DNA from: an uncultured Oscillospiraceae bacterium
GTDB lineage: Bacteria; Bacillota; Clostridia; Oscillospirales; Oscillospiraceae
Length of the DNA: 34,937 nucleotides
Assembly (NCBI GenBank): GCA_944385405.1
Contig: CALWXB010000020.1
Coordinates: forward strand, 1 to 34,937
Reading direction: 5' to 3'
Shown here piece after piece: positions 17,163 to 33,860 of the stretch. Position numbers and translations under genes: made by a program. Numbering within the stretch: the first letter of the stretch is position 1; every line of letters starts with the position of its first letter. The notes beneath the pieces were generated by a model, which had not been told where the DNA came from, made no database searches, and saw only the letters and a program-made list of their open reading frames with translations.

Positions 17163-18048
17163 AGTCACTTCTCCTTTGCTCCTCCGGCATCTCCAGTGTA
17201 AAGCGTCCAAGCTTGCCGCCGCGGAACTCGTCCAGCAAGATCTTCGCCATCCGCTCCGTGTCCACTTCCCCACCGGAGATCAAAAAGCCACGCTTCTTCC
17301 CCGCTACCTCCAGCAGCCGGTAGCCCCAGGCCACGTCGTTTTCCTCCGCCGCCCGCTCCGGGATCCCGGAGAGCTTGTAGGCGGCGGCCAACTCATCGGA
17401 ATAATGTGTCCCCAGATAGGCCATCAGATGGCAGCCCAGGGTCTCTGTGTCCAGGATATCATCCTTTACCGCGCCGGTAAAGGCCAGGTTCAGTCCCACG
17501 CTCTGGTCTTCAAACTTGGGCCAGAGGATACCGGGGGTATCCAGCAGCTCCAGGTTCCGGTCGATGGGTACCCACTGCTTGGAGCGGGTGACGCCGGGCC
17601 GGTCCTCAGTCTTTGCCGTCTTGCGGCCCGCGATCCGGTTGATGAAGGTGGATTTGCCCACATTGGGGATACCCAGGATCATCACCCGGATCACCCGGTT
17701 CTGCCCCTTGGCCTCATAGGCCCGGATCTTCTCCGAGAGCAGCTCCCGGACAGCGACGGCGAACCGGGCCGTTCCCTGCCCGCTTTTGGCGTCGGATTCC
17801 AGCACGGCATAGCCCTTTGCCCGGAAATATGCCGCCCACCGGTCTGTGGAAGCCTTGTCTGCCTGATCCACCCGGTTCAGCACCACCAGCCGGGGCTTCC
17901 CCGCCGTCAGCTCATCCACATCCGGGTTCCGGCTGGAAACCGGGATCCGGGCATCCAGGATCTCGCACACCGCATCTACGTTCTTGATCTGCTCGGCGAT
18001 CATCCGCCGGGTCTTGGTCATATGACCGGGATACCACTGAATGTTCAT
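17143..18048 (-). CDS. rbgA: Ribosome biogenesis GTPase RbgA (YlqF)
   Basis: RbgA is a circularly permuted GTPase needed for late 50S subunit assembly. The permuted order is visible: G4 NRVD at residues 58-61, then G5-like SDAKSG, then G1 [10 protein letters not shown] at 127-136, then G3 DTPG at 170-173. The N-terminal [11 protein letters not shown] at 5-15 is diagnostic. Length is 301 residues. Its ATG overlaps the stop of the upstream signal peptidase as ATGA. The lepB-rbgA-rnhB order is typical of Firmicutes, though rplS, often upstream, is not here. Confidence 0.96.
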
Positions 18049-18647
18049 GCGATCACTCCAATGCGCCCGAAGTCCCGTTTCTCAGAATCCTCATCCGTTC
18101 CGGGGAAGGCAAGAAATACCGCCTTTCCGATGACGTACCGGGTATCCACCGTACCCAGCCGGGCATCTCGGCTGTCGCTGGAGTGGTTCCGGTTGTCGCC
18201 CATGACGAAGATGCAGCCATCCGGCACCGTCAGGGGGAATTCCGTCCCCTCCTGCAGAAAAGTCAGTTCGTTGACATAGGGCTCGTCCAACAATGTGCCG
18301 TCCACATACACACTGCCGCTTTCGAAGTCAATATCCACCGTCTGACCCTCTGTGGCAATGACCCGCTTGACGATGGGTTCCTCCAGAAACTCTGACTTCC
18401 GCAGCACCACGATATCTCCGTATGCATAGTCGTCATACAGAAGAGAGCTGAGCACCAGCAGCCGGTCCCCGTCCTGCAGGGTGGGGACCATGGAGTGCCC
18501 GTCCACCCCGATGAGGCGGATCACAAATGTAAACAGCAGCACCACTGCCAGGACCGAGCACACCAGCGCCTGGACCCATTCATAGAGATCCCGGCCCTCC
18601 TGCCTGTCCCGGGCGGGCTGTTCCTTTTCCTGTTCATTTTCCAGCAT
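18045..18647 (-). CDS. lepB: Signal peptidase I, copy B
   Basis: This is a type I signal peptidase, which removes signal peptides from exported proteins at the outer face of the membrane. A charged 20-residue start is followed by one membrane anchor (about 24-47). The catalytic Ser52 is in GHSMVPTLQ and the catalytic Lys94 in [11 protein letters not shown]. The conserved [12 protein letters not shown] box is at 150-161. The 200-residue protein closely resembles the copy just upstream, so the pair looks like a tandem duplication. It is followed by rbgA with a 4-base overlap. Confidence 0.95.
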
Positions 18648-18663: not shown

Positions 18664-19230
18664 TCAGCTCAAGATTCCCATCCGGCTCCACTCCCGCCGG
18701 TCCAGCTCTGCCGTCTTGCCCGGCACTACCAGGGCCACCGCCCGGCCGACGATCTTCCGGACATCTACCGGTCCCAATGCCGCATCCCGGCTGTCCTGAC
18801 TGTCGTTGCGGTTGTCGCCCATGACGAACACGCAGTCCTCCGGAACTGTGAGGGGAAACTCCGTCCCCTCCTGCAGATGGGTGGCCTCCCGGATATATGG
18901 CTCGTCCAATGCAGCACCGTCCACATACACGACGCCCTGATCAAAGTCGATGTCCACCGTCTGTCCTTCCGTGGCGATGACCCGCTTGACGATCATTTCC
19001 TTTTCCCGCAGCGCACCGCCCACGATCACGATATCTCCCCGGCGGTAATCCCCGCACCAGAGACTGTTGAGCACCAGCAGCCGGTCCCCGTCCTGCAGGG
19101 TCTCCCGCATGGACTCCCCGGAAACGGATACCACCCGGATCCCCAGCGTGAACACCAGCACCACCGTCACCACGGCGGGCACCAGCACCCGGATCCACTC
19201 ATAGAGGTTTTTTGCCGTCTTGTTTTCCAT
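18664..19230 (-). CDS. lepB: Signal peptidase I, copy A
   Basis: This is the first of two tandem type I signal peptidases. The single membrane anchor is at about 14-34, the catalytic Ser40 in SGESMRETLQ and the catalytic Lys82 in [11 protein letters not shown]. The box GDNRNDSQDSRD is at 138-149. Both active sites are intact, so neither copy looks degenerate. I use the ATG at 19230 (MENKTAKNLYEW), giving 188 residues, with GGAG ten bases upstream. It is the first gene after the promoter at 19303-19275. The residues after the catalytic Ser differ between copies (MRET here, MVPT in copy B), a possible sign of altered substrate preference. Confidence 0.95.
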   Translation of the reverse strand: MENKTAKNLYEWIRVLVPAVVTVVLVFTLGIRVVSVSGESMRETLQDGDRLLVLNSLWCGDYRRGDIVIVGGALREKEMIVKRVIATEGQTVDIDFDQGVVYVDGAALDEPYIREATHLQEGTEFPLTVPEDCVFVMGDNRNDSQDSRDAALGPVDVRKIVGRAVALVVPGKTAELDRREWSRMGILS

Positions 19231-19274
19231 AAGTTTCCATCTCCGCCATTTCCGGCTGCACGTCATATTGTAGC

Positions 19275-29858: not shown

Positions 29859-30890
29859 ATGTATAGTTTTCGAAACGATTACAGCGAGGGCGCCCATCCC
29901 TGCGTCCTCCAGGCCCTCTCCCGGACCAACACCGCTCAGACCTGCGGCTACGGACAGGATCCATTTTGCCTGGACGCCGCAGCCCGGATCCGTGCACTCT
30001 GCCATGCACCTAAAGCCGATGTCCATTTTCTGGTGGGCGGCACCCAGACCAATCTGGTGACCATCGACGCGCTGCTGCGGCCCTGCGAGGCGGTGATCGC
30101 TGCCCACACCGGCCACGTCAACGTTCATGAGACCGGCGCCATCGAGGCCACCGGCCACAAGGTCTGTGCCGTCCCCTCTCCCGACGGGAAGGTCACCTGC
30201 GAGATGGTGGAATCCGTAGTGCGGGCCCACAGCTCTGAACACATGGTCATCCCCCGGCTGGTATACATCTCCGACACCACGGAGATCGGCACCGTCTACA
30301 CCCAGGCGGAACTGGCCGCTCTGCGCCGCTGCTGTGACGCCAATGATCTGCTGCTGTATCTGGACGGTGCCCGTCTGGGCTCCGCCCTCACCATCCCCGG
30401 TGCGGATGTGACACTGCCGGACCTGGCCGCCCTTACCGACGCCTTCACCATCGGCGGCACCAAAAACGGAGCCCTCTTTGGAGAGGCGCTGATCCTCACC
30501 ACGCCCTGCCCCCGTTTCCGCTGGCACATGAAGCAGCGGGGCGCGGTTCTGGCCAAGGGGCGGCTGCTGGGCGTGCAGTTCCAGGCCCTGCTGAAAGAAG
30601 GGCTCTACTTCGATCTGGCCCGCCACGCCAACGAGATGGCGCAGCAGCTGCGGCAGGGACTGGAATCTTTGGGCTGCACAATGGCCTGGGACTCCCCCTC
30701 CAACCAACAGTTCGTGATCCTTCCCGATCCCGTGATCCAGGCGCTGCAGGACGGCGGCTATGAATTTGAAACGGACCACCCGGCAGGTCCGGACCGCACC
30801 TGCATCCGGCTGGTCACCAGCTGGGCCACGCCCACCCAGGCAGTGGACACATTTTTGCAGGATCTTGCCGCCCTCCTCCCTACCCCCTGA
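29859..30890 (+). CDS. ltaE: Low-specificity threonine aldolase
   Basis: This PLP enzyme splits threonine or allo-threonine to glycine and acetaldehyde. The 343-residue protein has the fold-I pattern of the family: the N-terminal FRNDYSEGAHPCVL, the phosphate loop GGTQTN (60-65), the ring-stacking His83, Asp169 in YLDGARLGSA, and the PLP Lys202 in IGGTKNGALFGE. It has its own promoter and a hairpin terminator, so it is a single-gene unit. The ribosome site is modest (AAGGCGG). Confidence 0.92.
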   Translation: MYSFRNDYSEGAHPCVLQALSRTNTAQTCGYGQDPFCLDAAARIRALCHAPKADVHFLVGGTQTNLVTIDALLRPCEAVIAAHTGHVNVHETGAIEATGHKVCAVPSPDGKVTCEMVESVVRAHSSEHMVIPRLVYISDTTEIGTVYTQAELAALRRCCDANDLLLYLDGARLGSALTIPGADVTLPDLAALTDAFTIGGTKNGALFGEALILTTPCPRFRWHMKQRGAVLAKGRLLGVQFQALLKEGLYFDLARHANEMAQQLRQGLESLGCTMAWDSPSNQQFVILPDPVIQALQDGGYEFETDHPAGPDRTCIRLVTSWATPTQAVDTFLQDLAALLPTP

Positions 30891-30897
30891 CGCGTTC

Positions 30898-30927
30898 AGC
30901 TCCCGTCCTCTATGGGCGGGAGCTTTT
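30898..30927 (+). terminator. Terminator after the threonine aldolase gene
   Basis: AGCTCCCGTCC and GGGCGGGAGCT form an 11-pair stem (one G-U) with a 5-base loop, followed by TTT. It ends immediately before the first LexA-like box. The short T-run makes it moderate in strength. Confidence 0.6.
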
Positions 30928-30941
30928 CGAATATTTGTTCG
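30928..30941. promoter_or_regulatory. LexA-box-like palindrome 1
   Basis: CGAATATTTGTTCG is an imperfect match to the Firmicute LexA/DinR consensus CGAACRNRYGTTYC. It lies just upstream of the -35 box of the radical SAM cassette promoter. Confidence 0.6.
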
Positions 30942-30948
30942 ATTTCTC

Positions 30949-30977
30949 TTGACAGAAACATTTGTTCGAGTTATAGT
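30949..30977 (+). promoter_or_regulatory. Promoter of the SOS radical SAM cassette
   Basis: A perfect TTGACA (30949-30954) and TATAGT (30972-30977) are exactly 17 bases apart. The spacer itself is LexA box 2. Such a strong promoter would need repression, which the three boxes can provide. Confidence 0.88.
30955..30968. promoter_or_regulatory. LexA box 2
   Basis: GAAACATTTGTTCG reads on the minus strand as CGAACAAATGTTTC, a complete match to the Firmicute LexA consensus CGAACRNRYGTTYC. It fills the space between the -35 and -10 boxes. Confidence 0.88.
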
Positions 30978-30983
30978 AATTAT

Positions 30984-30997
30984 CGAACAAACGTTTC
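30984..30997. promoter_or_regulatory. LexA box 3
   Basis: CGAACAAACGTTTC is a complete match to CGAACRNRYGTTYC and covers the expected transcription start. Box centres are about 27 and 29 bases apart, so three dimers could bind in a row. Confidence 0.88.
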
Positions 30998-31015
30998 TAT
31001 CAGGAGGTATGTAAC

Positions 31016-31135
31016 ATGACTGGATGGACGCTCTTTTTCGTTCTGGTGGGTGCGGCTTTTCTCACCGCGCAGCTCTTCCGCTTTATCGACTTTATCGAGC
31101 GCCCCGCCAGGCCCGCGCGGCACAGAGGCCGGTAA
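31016..31135 (+). CDS. 39-residue single-pass membrane peptide, SOS cassette
   Basis: This short gene starts with ATG at 31016, eight bases after a strong AGGAGG, and ends with TAA at 31133-31135. The peptide has one hydrophobic segment (about residues 4-25, WTLFFVLVGAAFLTAQLF at its core) and a basic tail rich in Arg and Pro (IERPARPARHRGR). The tail favours an outside N-terminus and an inside C-terminus. It is the first gene under the LexA-boxed promoter, and the radical SAM gene begins 4 bases later with a weaker ribosome site, so the two are probably translationally coupled. I do not recognise a family. A role like the SOS-induced small membrane division inhibitors, or anchoring of the next gene's product, is inference only. 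Confidence 0.75.
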   Translation: MTGWTLFFVLVGAAFLTAQLFRFIDFIERPARPARHRGR

Positions 31136-31139
31136 TCCC

Positions 31140-32399
31140 ATGGACGTGCTGGAGAAGCTGACGATCCTGACCGACGCGGCCAAATATGACGCGGCCTGTA
31201 CCTCCAGCGGAGGCAACCGGACAGCCAAAAAGGGGATGATCGGAAACACCTCTTCCTCTGTGGCCGGGTGCTGCCACTCCTTCTCCGCAGACGGCCGGTG
31301 CGTCACATTGCTGAAGGTCCTGATGACCAATCGCTGCATCTACGATTGCAAATACTGTGTGAACCGCCGCAGTAACGACACCCCCCGTGCTGCTTTCACG
31401 CCGGAAGAACTGGCTGACCTGACCATCGGCTTCTACCGCCGCAACTACATCGAAGGCCTCTTCCTCTCCTCCGGCGTTTTCCGCAGCCCGGATTATACCA
31501 CGGAACTGATGATCCGCGCCCTGCGTCTGCTGCGGGAGGAATACCGCTTCAACGGCTACATTCATGCCAAAGCCATTCCAGGTACTGCGCCGGAGCTGGT
31601 GGAACAGTTGGGACTGCTGGCAGACCGCCTCAGTGTCAACATTGAGCTCCCTTCCGAGGCTGGTCTGCGGATTCTGGCCCCGGATAAAACCAAGGAAGCG
31701 ATCCTGGCTCCCATGCGGCAGATCCGCACCCGGAACCTCCAAAGCAAGGAAGAACTGATAAAATACCGCCATGCGCCCCGCTTCGCACCGGCCGGCCAAA
31801 GCACCCAACTGATCGTTGGCGCCACATCAGACAGTGACTTCCACATCCTGCGGTTGACCCAGGCGCTTTATCAGCAGTACCGGCTCAAACGGGTGTTCTA
31901 TTCCGCCTATGTCCCGGTGGTGGAACATGCCCTTCTGCCTGCCAAGACCGTCAAGCCCCCACTGCTGCGGGAGCATCGTCTTTACCAGGCGGACTGGCTG
32001 CTTCGTTTCTATGGTTTTCGGACGGAAGAACTGCTGGATGAGCATCACCCTGACTTTGACATTCGGCTGGATCCCAAATGCAGCTGGGCGGTAGCCCATC
32101 CGGAATTCTTTCCGGTGGAAGTGAACACCGCCGACTATGAAGCACTGCTGCGGGTCCCCGGCATCGGCGTGACCTCCGCCAGACGCATCCTCTCCGCCCG
32201 CCGAACTGGGAGCCTCCGCCCGGAGCAGCTGCCCCGCCTGGGCGTTGTTATGAAACGGGCGCAATATTTTCTCACAGCCTCCGGCAAACTGCCGGAGGGC
32301 TTGCGTTTCACGCAAGACGGTCTGCTCCGGCGGCTCATCGCCGCAGAGCGTCCTGCCCCGGATTTCCAGCAGCTCTCCCTTTTTGACGCCATGGCCTAA
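31140..32399 (+). CDS. Putative DNA modification/repair radical SAM protein
   Basis: This 419-residue protein belongs to the radical SAM superfamily branch named as a putative DNA modification/repair protein (TIGR03916 as I recall it). The cluster motif is CIYDCKYC with Cys66, Cys70 and Cys73. Upstream is a Cys pair at 44-45 and a segment common to the family (AKYDAACTSSG). A helix-hairpin-helix region at about 328-375 (RVPGIGVTSARRIL) is a non-specific DNA-binding element. A short C-terminal segment ends FQQLSLFDAMA. The reaction and substrate are not established. Here it sits under LexA control and next to its usual partner. I start at 31140; a longer frame would overlap the small upstream gene. 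Confidence 0.92.
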   Translation: MDVLEKLTILTDAAKYDAACTSSGGNRTAKKGMIGNTSSSVAGCCHSFSADGRCVTLLKVLMTNRCIYDCKYCVNRRSNDTPRAAFTPEELADLTIGFYRRNYIEGLFLSSGVFRSPDYTTELMIRALRLLREEYRFNGYIHAKAIPGTAPELVEQLGLLADRLSVNIELPSEAGLRILAPDKTKEAILAPMRQIRTRNLQSKEELIKYRHAPRFAPAGQSTQLIVGATSDSDFHILRLTQALYQQYRLKRVFYSAYVPVVEHALLPAKTVKPPLLREHRLYQADWLLRFYGFRTEELLDEHHPDFDIRLDPKCSWAVAHPEFFPVEVNTADYEALLRVPGIGVTSARRILSARRTGSLRPEQLPRLGVVMKRAQYFLTASGKLPEGLRFTQDGLLRRLIAAERPAPDFQQLSLFDAMA

Positions 32400-32410
32400 G
32401 GATGCTGACT

Positions 32411-33268
32411 ATGACCGAAATGATTTATCTCTACGACGGCAGCTTTCAGGGTTTTTTGTGCTGCGTCTTTGACAGCTATGCGTACAAAGAAGTCCCCACC
32501 GCTATCTGCTGCGATGAGGACTCTGTTCCTGCACTCTTTGACACACGCGGCATCGTCACAGATCAAGGCCACGCGGAGCGCGTATACCGAAAGATTGTAA
32601 AGTGTTCTCCCTATGCAGCTTCTCTGCTCCAAAAATGTTTTCTCACCTGCCTTCCTCAGCGGGAAATGCGAATGTATCATCTGGTTTCAAAGCTTCTGAA
32701 ACAGGGCAGCGGCTTTTTGCGGGATCCCTCCGACGAGACCCTCTATCCTGTGCTCCGGGCAGTCCGTCATCTGGAAGGAGAGGCACATCTTCTCAAAGGC
32801 TTTGTCCGGTTTTCACAGCTGGGAGATGTCCTGGGCGGAGAGATCCGGCCCAAAAACCGGGTCCTGCCCCTCCTTCGGCATCACTTCTGTGCCCGCTATG
32901 CCGGAGACCGCTTTTTCCTTTATGACCGCACCCATCGGGAAGTGCTGTTCTATACATCGGGTCAGGCGTGCATCCGGCCCCTGGACGATTTTCAGATGGC
33001 ACAGCCGGATGCAACAGAAGCTCACTACCGCCTGCTCTGGAAACGATTTTATGACACCATTGCCATTCGGGAGCGGTACAATCCCCGCTGCCGACAAACC
33101 CAGATGCCCAAGCGCTATTGGTCTACCATGACGGAGTTTCAGGATGCTACCTATTTCACCCCTCAAAGCTCTTGCGCAGCCGTTCCAGACCCCGGCGCTC
33201 CAGCCGGGATATCTGCACCTGAGACACCTTCAGGATTCGGGCCGTCTGCTCCTGCGTCAATCCCTTGA
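32411..33268 (+). CDS. TIGR03915-like DNA metabolism protein, partner of the radical SAM protein
   Basis: The first 244 residues match the family that neighbours the radical SAM repair protein (TIGR03915/DUF4130 as I recall it), from IYLYDGSFQGFLCCVF to the conserved end PKRYWSTMTEFQ. In some genomes this domain is fused to a uracil-DNA-glycosylase-like domain; here that domain is absent. Residues 245-285 are a Ser/Pro/Ala-rich tail with no family likeness. From about residue 249 on, the tail is encoded entirely by the antisense strand of sigF, a 113-bp convergent overlap. This suggests loss of the original stop codon. I start at the ATG at 32411, nine bases after AAGG; ATGs at 32402 and 32420 are alternatives. 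Confidence 0.88.
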   Translation: MTEMIYLYDGSFQGFLCCVFDSYAYKEVPTAICCDEDSVPALFDTRGIVTDQGHAERVYRKIVKCSPYAASLLQKCFLTCLPQREMRMYHLVSKLLKQGSGFLRDPSDETLYPVLRAVRHLEGEAHLLKGFVRFSQLGDVLGGEIRPKNRVLPLLRHHFCARYAGDRFFLYDRTHREVLFYTSGQACIRPLDDFQMAQPDATEAHYRLLWKRFYDTIAIRERYNPRCRQTQMPKRYWSTMTEFQDATYFTPQSSCAAVPDPGAPAGISAPETPSGFGPSAPASIP

Positions 33269-33860
33269 AATACCGCAAAAGGATCGTCATGCGCTCCCGC
33301 TCCGGCAAACTGTCGATGGCCTCCCGCAGCGCGATGCGCTCTACCAGCCCCTCTTCCGGCGCTTCCGTCCCAAGCACACCCTCCAGGGTCAGTCCATCCC
33401 CCACTTCCTGCTGCAGGGATTCCGGTGCATCCGTGGCCAGATCGATCCGGGCGATCTCCTCCGGTGTCAATCCTGCAGCCTCAGACAACTCGGACAGAAG
33501 CGGTTCCCGGCCGAGCTGATGTCGTAAGCGCTCACGTATGCCGTAAAGTGTTTGTGCTTGCTCCCGTATACTGCGTCCCACTTTGATGGATCCATCATCC
33601 CGCAAAAAGCGTCGTATCTCACCAGCAATCTTGGGAACGGCATAGGTGGAAAAGCAGGTCCCATAGGAAAAGTCAAACCCCTGGATCGCTTTCAGAAAAC
33701 CCAGGCATCCCAGCTGATAGAGGTCCTCCGGGTCCACGCCCCGTCCATAATAGCGCCGCACCACGCTCCAGATCAAGCCGTTGTTCTCTACCACTGCCCG
33801 CTCACAGGCTTCCCGGTCCCCCTCCTGTGCCGCCCGCAGCAGCTCCAGTGCCGCGCTCAT
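33156..33860 (-). CDS. sigF: Sporulation sigma factor F (SpoIIAC)
   Basis: This is the forespore-specific sigma-70-family factor, 234 residues. Region 2 is at about 25-90 (DPEDLYQLGCLGFLKAIQGF then FSTYAVPKIAGEIRRFLRDD), region 3 follows, and the region 4 helix-turn-helix is near the C-terminus (LTQEQTARILKVSQVQISRLE). Its place as third gene after spoIIAA and spoIIAB separates it from the related sigma G. Its ATG overlaps the spoIIAB stop as ATGA. Its 3' end overlaps the convergent gene by 113 bp and no terminator follows. Confidence 0.95.
   Translation of the reverse strand: MSAALELLRAAQEGDREACERAVVENNGLIWSVVRRYYGRGVDPEDLYQLGCLGFLKAIQGFDFSYGTCFSTYAVPKIAGEIRRFLRDDGSIKVGRSIREQAQTLYGIRERLRHQLGREPLLSELSEAAGLTPEEIARIDLATDAPESLQQEVGDGLTLEGVLGTEAPEEGLVERIALREAIDSLPERERMTILLRYFKGLTQEQTARILKVSQVQISRLERRGLERLRKSFEG

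Follow-up and report, generated by a model that had tools for sequence, protein, structure and literature searches.

The stretch of DNA analyzed here comprises 34,937 nucleotides from an uncultured Oscillospiraceae bacterium (contig CALWXB010000020.1 of assembly GCA_944385405.1; referred to as the window), and it contains toward its end three forward-strand genes behind a promoter that is surrounded by palindromes of the LexA type. The first gene encodes a membrane peptide of 39 residues, the second a radical S-adenosylmethionine (SAM) protein of the family TIGR03916, and the third its TIGR03915/DUF4130 partner. We think that these genes most probably constitute a LexA-repressed SOS operon, which is the best explanation of the locus as a whole. 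The features are the following.

30928..30941, minus strand: LexA-type box 1, 5' of the -35 hexamer, with a degenerate half-site (2 mismatches to CGAACRNRYGTTYC; 16.5 bits)
30949..30954, plus strand: -35 hexamer TTGACA, from a promoter scan
30955..30968, minus strand: LexA-type box 2, within the -35/-10 spacer (0 mismatches to CGAACRNRYGTTYC; 18.3 bits)
30972..30977, plus strand: -10 hexamer TATAGT, from the promoter scan
30984..30997, plus strand: LexA-type box 3, across the predicted transcription start (0 mismatches to CGAACRNRYGTTYC; 16.5 bits)
31002..31008, plus strand: Shine-Dalgarno sequence AGGAGGT of the peptide gene (7-base match)
31016..31135, plus strand: gene for a single-span membrane peptide of 39 residues, of an unnamed family (conservation, pN/pS, profile)
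31140..32399, plus strand: TIGR03916 radical SAM protein with a C-terminal helix-hairpin-helix (HHH) region (648.2 bits against a cut-off of 343.5; Radical_SAM and HHH_3)
32402..33268, plus strand: TIGR03915/DUF4130 partner (TIGR03915 203 bits against a cut-off of 112.25; DUF4130 142.6 bits)

The boxes, the promoter and the gene order are confirmed. With TTGACA-17-TATAGT at 30949-30977, the promoter agrees with the consensus at 11 of 12 positions. The peptide stop codon is separated by 4 bases from the ATG of the radical SAM gene. A first-pass annotation had described three palindromes, two of them with full consensus, around a near-perfect sigma-A promoter, one lying in the spacer and one over the start site. 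The coordinates and a matrix ranking agree with this description, boxes 2 and 3 being the exact matches at these two positions, with the correction that box 1 is degenerate (GAATATTTGTTC). When up to two mismatches to CGAACRNRYGTTYC are allowed, 15 sites are found in the window, as compared to a mean of 6.85 and a maximum of 14 in 100 shuffles. Boxes 2 and 3 are the sole exact CGAACRNRYGTTYC matches in the 2.2-Mb assembly, where the reversed control pattern also occurs twice.

The boxes were also compared with the promoters of lexA itself. From 30 lexA loci of the same taxonomic family, 18 with a site of at most one mismatch to GAACNNNNGTTC in the 260 bases upstream were used to build a 16-bp matrix, from which the radical SAM promoters were excluded; 17 of these sites are of the GAACAAATGTTTGC kind and one (L057) is doubtful, but all 18 were used. 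On the 35-kb window this matrix ranks the three boxes 1 to 3 (18.3, 16.5 and 16.5 bits), and the next site reaches 9.6 bits. The lexA box of the sister genome G082, which belongs to the same genus, reads GTGGAACAAATGTTTGCATT. G082 as a whole has 9 matches to the strict pattern as compared to 8 for the control, and its sites of at least 15 bits lie at lexA, at this operon and at two other places. In Clostridium difficile, a set of operators was tested with purified LexA; the lexA operator AGGAACAAATGTTTGC belongs to this set and is classed as high affinity (PMC4234289).

A survey of such boxes upstream of the family across Clostridia had been proposed along with the first-pass annotation, and with this survey carried out, boxes are found at most loci. 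A box was counted when it scored at least 11 bits within 350 bases upstream of TIGR03916, a threshold that was fixed before these counts and after earlier pattern scans; a threshold of 8 bits was added later. The family set consists of 51 genomes, namely the 52 of 150 that exceed the TIGR03916 cut-off minus the window's own; partial homologues in G002, a second copy in G108 and fragments in G139 are not counted in it. Here a box occurs in 35/51, with 9/1020 in shuffles, 2/51 inside the gene and 0/48 further upstream. The named relatives are the 80 best-ranking stretches out of 345; in these it occurs in 76/80, with 30/1600 in shuffles, 0/80 inside the gene and 5/74 further upstream; the two sets overlap by at least five genomes (for example L123 and L028), and their counts are not additive. 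A class-wide set of Clostridia, drawn from the 109 of 291 genomes that exceed the cut-off and made up of the 70 best-scoring loci (the window's own excluded, 38 unread), has a box in 60 of the 70 loci and inside the gene in one of 70.

The boxes also follow the repressor. With LexA taken as detected when PF01726 matches at about 1e-14 or better, the family set has a box of 11 bits in 34 of the 42 genomes with LexA as compared to one of the 9 without (Fisher p 1.5e-4, a value inflated, like all p-values for LexA and box, by relatedness), and at 8 bits in 40 of 42 as compared to the same one of 9. The sole genome with a box and without a detected LexA is an assembly that is 85% complete. Conservation of the boxes, their likeness to those of lexA and their usual absence where LexA is undetected thus back the SOS control that had been proposed for this operon, and on these comparative data we consider such control as strongly supported. 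In G003, G008, G010, G028, G035, G111 and G112, PF01726 finds no LexA and the operon has no box. Two neighbourhoods (near position 436 of L269 and near position 1501 of L267) may be mentioned as read from their translations: a Y-family polymerase-like gene has a divergent LexA box of 19.1 bits, and in G036 a gene for a UvrD/PcrA-like helicase lies divergently beside the radical SAM operon.

While a single box is the rule in the class-wide set (52 of 70 loci), the arrangement of several operators goes with the peptide. Of the 67 peptide-bearing loci compared (the window and 66 named ones), 63 have a promoter that agrees with the consensus at 11 or 12 of 12 bases, and 66 have the 17-base spacing. 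A box of at least 8 bits lies in the spacer (offset 3-8 from the -35) in 58/67, after the -10 (offset 31-37) in 56/67 and upstream of the -35 in 41/67. At least two boxes that reach 11 bits are present in 49 of the 66 named loci with the peptide as compared to one of 14 without, and in the family set in 5/6 as compared to 8/45; all five three-box loci of the latter set carry the peptide. The tight repression and late response that had been predicted would fit such a three-operator promoter.

The peptide had been noticed in the first-pass annotation as a 39-residue membrane peptide, and the comparison of relatives indicates that it is real and under selection. Its pattern is MTGW..FF..G....QLFR.ID.IERP, followed by a basic tail, and its hydropathy peaks at 2.05 over 17 residues. 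A filter based on the Shine-Dalgarno sequence and the reading frame, which asked that the open reading frame end within 60 bases of the next start, finds it in 65 of the 80 named loci, or in 66 with L176, which has a weaker ribosome site; filter matches at L157, L163 and L164 were set aside, as they belong by eye to a different family. Of 65 peptide genes that were usable, the 11 divergent ones were excluded; in the remaining 54, pN/pS is 0.33 in frame, whereas the two shifted frames give 0.96 and 1.98, and most of the variation falls on the third codon position. Alignment A4 is A3 without the wrong or broken rows L014, L019, L075, L088 and L149. In the main type, W4, G12, Q19, F21, R22, D25, I27, E28 and P30 are nearly fixed, and a divergent type retains the same layout. 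On a tree of 92 radical SAM proteins, composed of the window, the 51 of the family set and every second named locus, the presence of the peptide requires three changes.

Against the profile of its own family, which includes the window sequence, the peptide scores 76.9 bits. A search with this profile finds the peptide in 8 of the 150 family genomes, in 7 at this operon and in one as a marginal match (G103, E 0.009). Five weaker paralogues lie outside the operon in three of those 8 genomes, with no LexA boxes nearby. Three of these paralogues (L190, L191, L193 at 1501) come after a small protein. The one compared with PHROGs, that of L191, resembles a phage RecE-like exonuclease in its tail part (60.9 bits), a hint that the peptide family may also reside in mobile elements. 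Pfam, NCBIfam and PHROGs hold no family for the peptide, and its profile gives there scattered matches with E 0.014 or worse. The profile had no useful match to PDB sequences; the peptide had none to phages, and a paralogue matched phages once, at chance level, and viral contigs not at all. PADLOC lists neither the peptide nor the radical SAM protein nor the partner, and in literature searches on related families and LexA no report was recognized as describing the peptide. As judged from its conservation, it is a selected protein family, which was found in one clade only.

The second gene product was correctly described as a radical SAM protein with a CX3CX2C motif (C66-C70-C73) and an HHH region, the latter at 26.1 bits being slightly below the cut-off of 27. 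Its closest named relative comes from an uncultured Oscillospiraceae metagenome-assembled genome (95% identity), and the genome to which the window belongs is Oscillibacter-like. In an alignment of 46 chosen rows (A2), C20, C45, H46, C54, C66, C70 and C73 are invariant in 46/46; 59 of the 70 class-wide loci had passed a filter that requires C66, C70 and C73, so that this second set bears independently only on C20, C45, H46 and C54. These four invariant residues outside CX3CX2C suggest a second metal site, and the structural model suggests a lipoyl-synthase-like core with three extra invariant cysteines; in enzymes of the lipoyl synthase type, N-terminal cysteines bind a second iron-sulfur cluster. 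SplB is not among the 50 PDB matches listed for this model, an absence that carries no weight.

For the partner, the assignment as TIGR03915-like holds, and the absence of the glycosylase-like domain from it is borne out by the domain scans, which find only TIGR03915/DUF4130. A fusion of TIGR03915 to a uracil-DNA glycosylase-like domain is a feature of some members only. The model of the partner suggests a resemblance to degenerate RecJ/DHH folds, with consistent if middling Z scores of 8.2 and below and a Foldseek E of 0.003 at best. The likeness to RecJ, Cdc45 and other DHH phosphoesterases would be one of fold only: for 35 DUF4130 members, the Pfam matches listed with E of 1 or below belong to 12 families, neither DHH nor DHHA1 being one of them, a comparison of the partner with PDB sequences gave no useful match, and by eye DUF4130 shows no DHH triad but just a YDG motif close to its N-terminus.

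To our knowledge, no reaction has been established for TIGR03916 or TIGR03915, and literature searches by family name returned no paper on TIGR03916, TIGR03915, or UdgX with radical SAM. The description of both as merely putative repair families stands, but LexA control of such a pair is not new, as it was predicted for CAC3343-CAC3344 of Clostridium acetobutylicum in 2013 from footprinting and expression (PMC3828012). The available part of that source mentions neither a membrane peptide nor a multi-operator promoter. What is new is the peptide together with the multi-operator promoter, while the SOS control of the pair is largely known already.

COG4277 is presumably the group to which TIGR03916 belongs. 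According to the part of the source at hand, a COG1573-COG4277 operon is in the SOS network of Bacteroidetes, with earlier reports from Verrucomicrobia and Alphaproteobacteria (PMC8565304). Like the pair of the window it is a two-gene putative repair operon within the SOS network, but it includes a uracil-DNA glycosylase (COG1573), of which none is seen in the window operon, and it has other operator motifs and, in that part of the source, no mention of a peptide. The SplB-like radical SAM photolyases that were described with DUF4130 (PMC3765255) differ in that TIGR03916 is a separate family model, and the portion of that paper that was available describes no DUF4130 fold.

Several observations weigh against LexA control and have to be considered together with the possibility that the boxes are something else. 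The loose pattern GAACRNRYGTTY is found 8 times in this genome as compared to 10 for its reversed control, and GAACRWAYGTTY 12 times in four relatives as compared to 11, with none in G005; other GAACRNRYGTTY sites of this genome are by eye a terminator-like hairpin on C5 and a site between inverted repeats on C38, and further ones lie on C1, C16, C17 and C22. If only this were considered, the boxes could be chance palindromes in an AT-rich promoter, a probability that is negligible given that their positions are conserved over 67 loci (the 17-base spacing being shared by 66), that they recur throughout the class and that shuffles seldom yield them. Likewise, a convincing site is missing in 13 of the 30 lexA promoters of the family (12 have none, L057 is doubtful), G014 and G047 possess LexA and lack a box also with the 8-bit threshold, and the five independent pairs that the tree offers agree between LexA and box in 2.2 (11 bits) or 3.0 (8 bits) cases on average, which does not reach significance, with none opposing. 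Finally, classical LexA was not found in this genome, the assembly of which is 88% complete; its sole and weak PF01726 match, an open reading frame of 361 codons, was rejected as LexA, being HrcA. LexA is present in G082, and neither the lexA-rpoA stretch nor the RpoA protein of this sister had a match in the assembly, in a search without a positive control. As rpoA is essential, its own absence points to a gap, and such an assembly gap is likely, if not proved, to explain the missing LexA. It is extremely unlikely that the boxes instead belong to another repressor, for which an XRE-Peptidase_S24 protein would be the obvious candidate. It is encoded at 2163-2420 of L034 (G000 C22), beside tRNA-Tyr and tRNA-Thr with a perfect GAACAAACGTTC between, about 200 bases upstream of the gene, and S24 phage-like repressors govern the SOS response in Bacteroidetes according to the accessible part of one report (PMC8565304). 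However, its own promoter has by eye ACAAGNNNCTTGT-like repeats, a different operator, LexA is present in close relatives that share the promoter and have a like motif at lexA itself, and the boxes are mostly absent where LexA is undetected. There are three S24-type matches in this genome, this repressor and two signal peptidases; the latter are a signal peptidase I pair within the window (18045-18647 and 18664-19266, minus strand, 200 residues and 126 bits each) with weak Peptidase_S24 matches.

The gene products leave room for alternatives as well. The peptide reading frame could be a cis-acting leader that opens the start site of the radical SAM gene and has a product without a job. The end of the frame, which lies between 21 bases before and 22 bases after the next start in the listed loci, suits translational coupling, a range to be read with the 60 bases demanded by the filter itself. 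We regard such a leader as very unlikely, since the amino acids are conserved far past start and stop (pN/pS and the nearly fixed Q19, R22, D25, E28 and P30), paralogues exist outside the operon, and many relatives have the radical SAM gene without the peptide. The pair, in turn, could be under SOS control and modify RNA, the nucleotide pool or a protein in stress, with no direct DNA repair. This is unlikely, as the HHH region is typical of DNA binding and a link to uracil-DNA glycosylase exists elsewhere, both in the family name rSAM_link_UDG and in the COG1573-COG4277 operon as far as it is described in the seen part of its source (PMC8565304). The SOS part of the earlier proposal of DNA repair under SOS control is backed; that the pair repairs DNA we infer from the names of the families, from the HHH region and from the SOS control.

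In the LexA-repressed operon, LexA bound at the operators would block RNA polymerase, and RecA filaments would trigger LexA self-cleavage, upon which the strong promoter fires. The peptide, with its full Shine-Dalgarno sequence, would be made first, and the translation of the radical SAM gene would be coupled to it over the short gap. The radical SAM protein might be kept on the DNA by its HHH tail and use a 5'-deoxyadenosyl radical to reverse or modify a base lesion, with the TIGR03915 partner presenting the DNA, while the peptide would sit in the membrane with the basic tail in the cytoplasm, as predicted from the positive-inside rule.

SidA, DidA, YneA, SosA and TisB are SOS-induced small membrane proteins, and the peptide resembles them as a small membrane protein under SOS control; a short membrane protein beneath LexA boxes is indeed what characterizes SOS-induced membrane micropeptides of the SidA/YneA/SosA/TisB type. 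It is unlike them in that it has no library family, has a basic C-terminal tail that is predicted to be cytoplasmic and shares its operon with the radical SAM pair. The leading, still tentative, candidate function is that of a membrane-side damage effector, for example a brake on division. That it anchors the repair pair seems doubtful, and a TisB-like depolarizing peptide would be distinctly unlikely, to the same degree as any other role, a mere leader included. Speculatively, and with considerable doubt as to the whole, a gut Oscillospiraceae clade may have taken an ancient repair operon, radical SAM/DUF4130 under the control of LexA, and provided it with a new membrane micropeptide and a three-operator promoter. 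The peptide would then represent a new class of SOS membrane effectors, as damage checkpoint or as membrane tether of the repair pair. Mobile elements may share it, given the RecE-exonuclease-like tail beside some paralogues, and the pair would consist of a two-cluster radical SAM enzyme and a degenerate RecJ/Cdc45-like subunit that holds the DNA. As LexA boxes are found at most of the Clostridia loci read, common laboratory strains can serve to test the role of TIGR03916/TIGR03915. The peptide offers a defined and conserved target for studying the membrane response to DNA damage in anaerobic gut bacteria, and the fold leads, that is the extra cysteine set and the RecJ-like partner, point to concrete biochemical tests.

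The operon is flanked by the following features.

29859-30890: upstream gene for a pyridoxal phosphate-dependent lyase/aldolase
30898..30924, plus strand: likely intrinsic terminator hairpin that ends the upstream gene (fold -24.3 kcal/mol, z -5.62, then UUUU)
33156-33860, minus strand: converging sigF-like sporulation gene, from its open reading frame coordinates

The hairpin is not listed by a consensus terminator scan. On the downstream side, the last 113 bases of the TIGR03915 gene (33156-33268) overlap the sigF-like gene at its 3' end in antisense orientation, and the C-terminal extension of TIGR03915 that results from this overlap recurs in several relatives.

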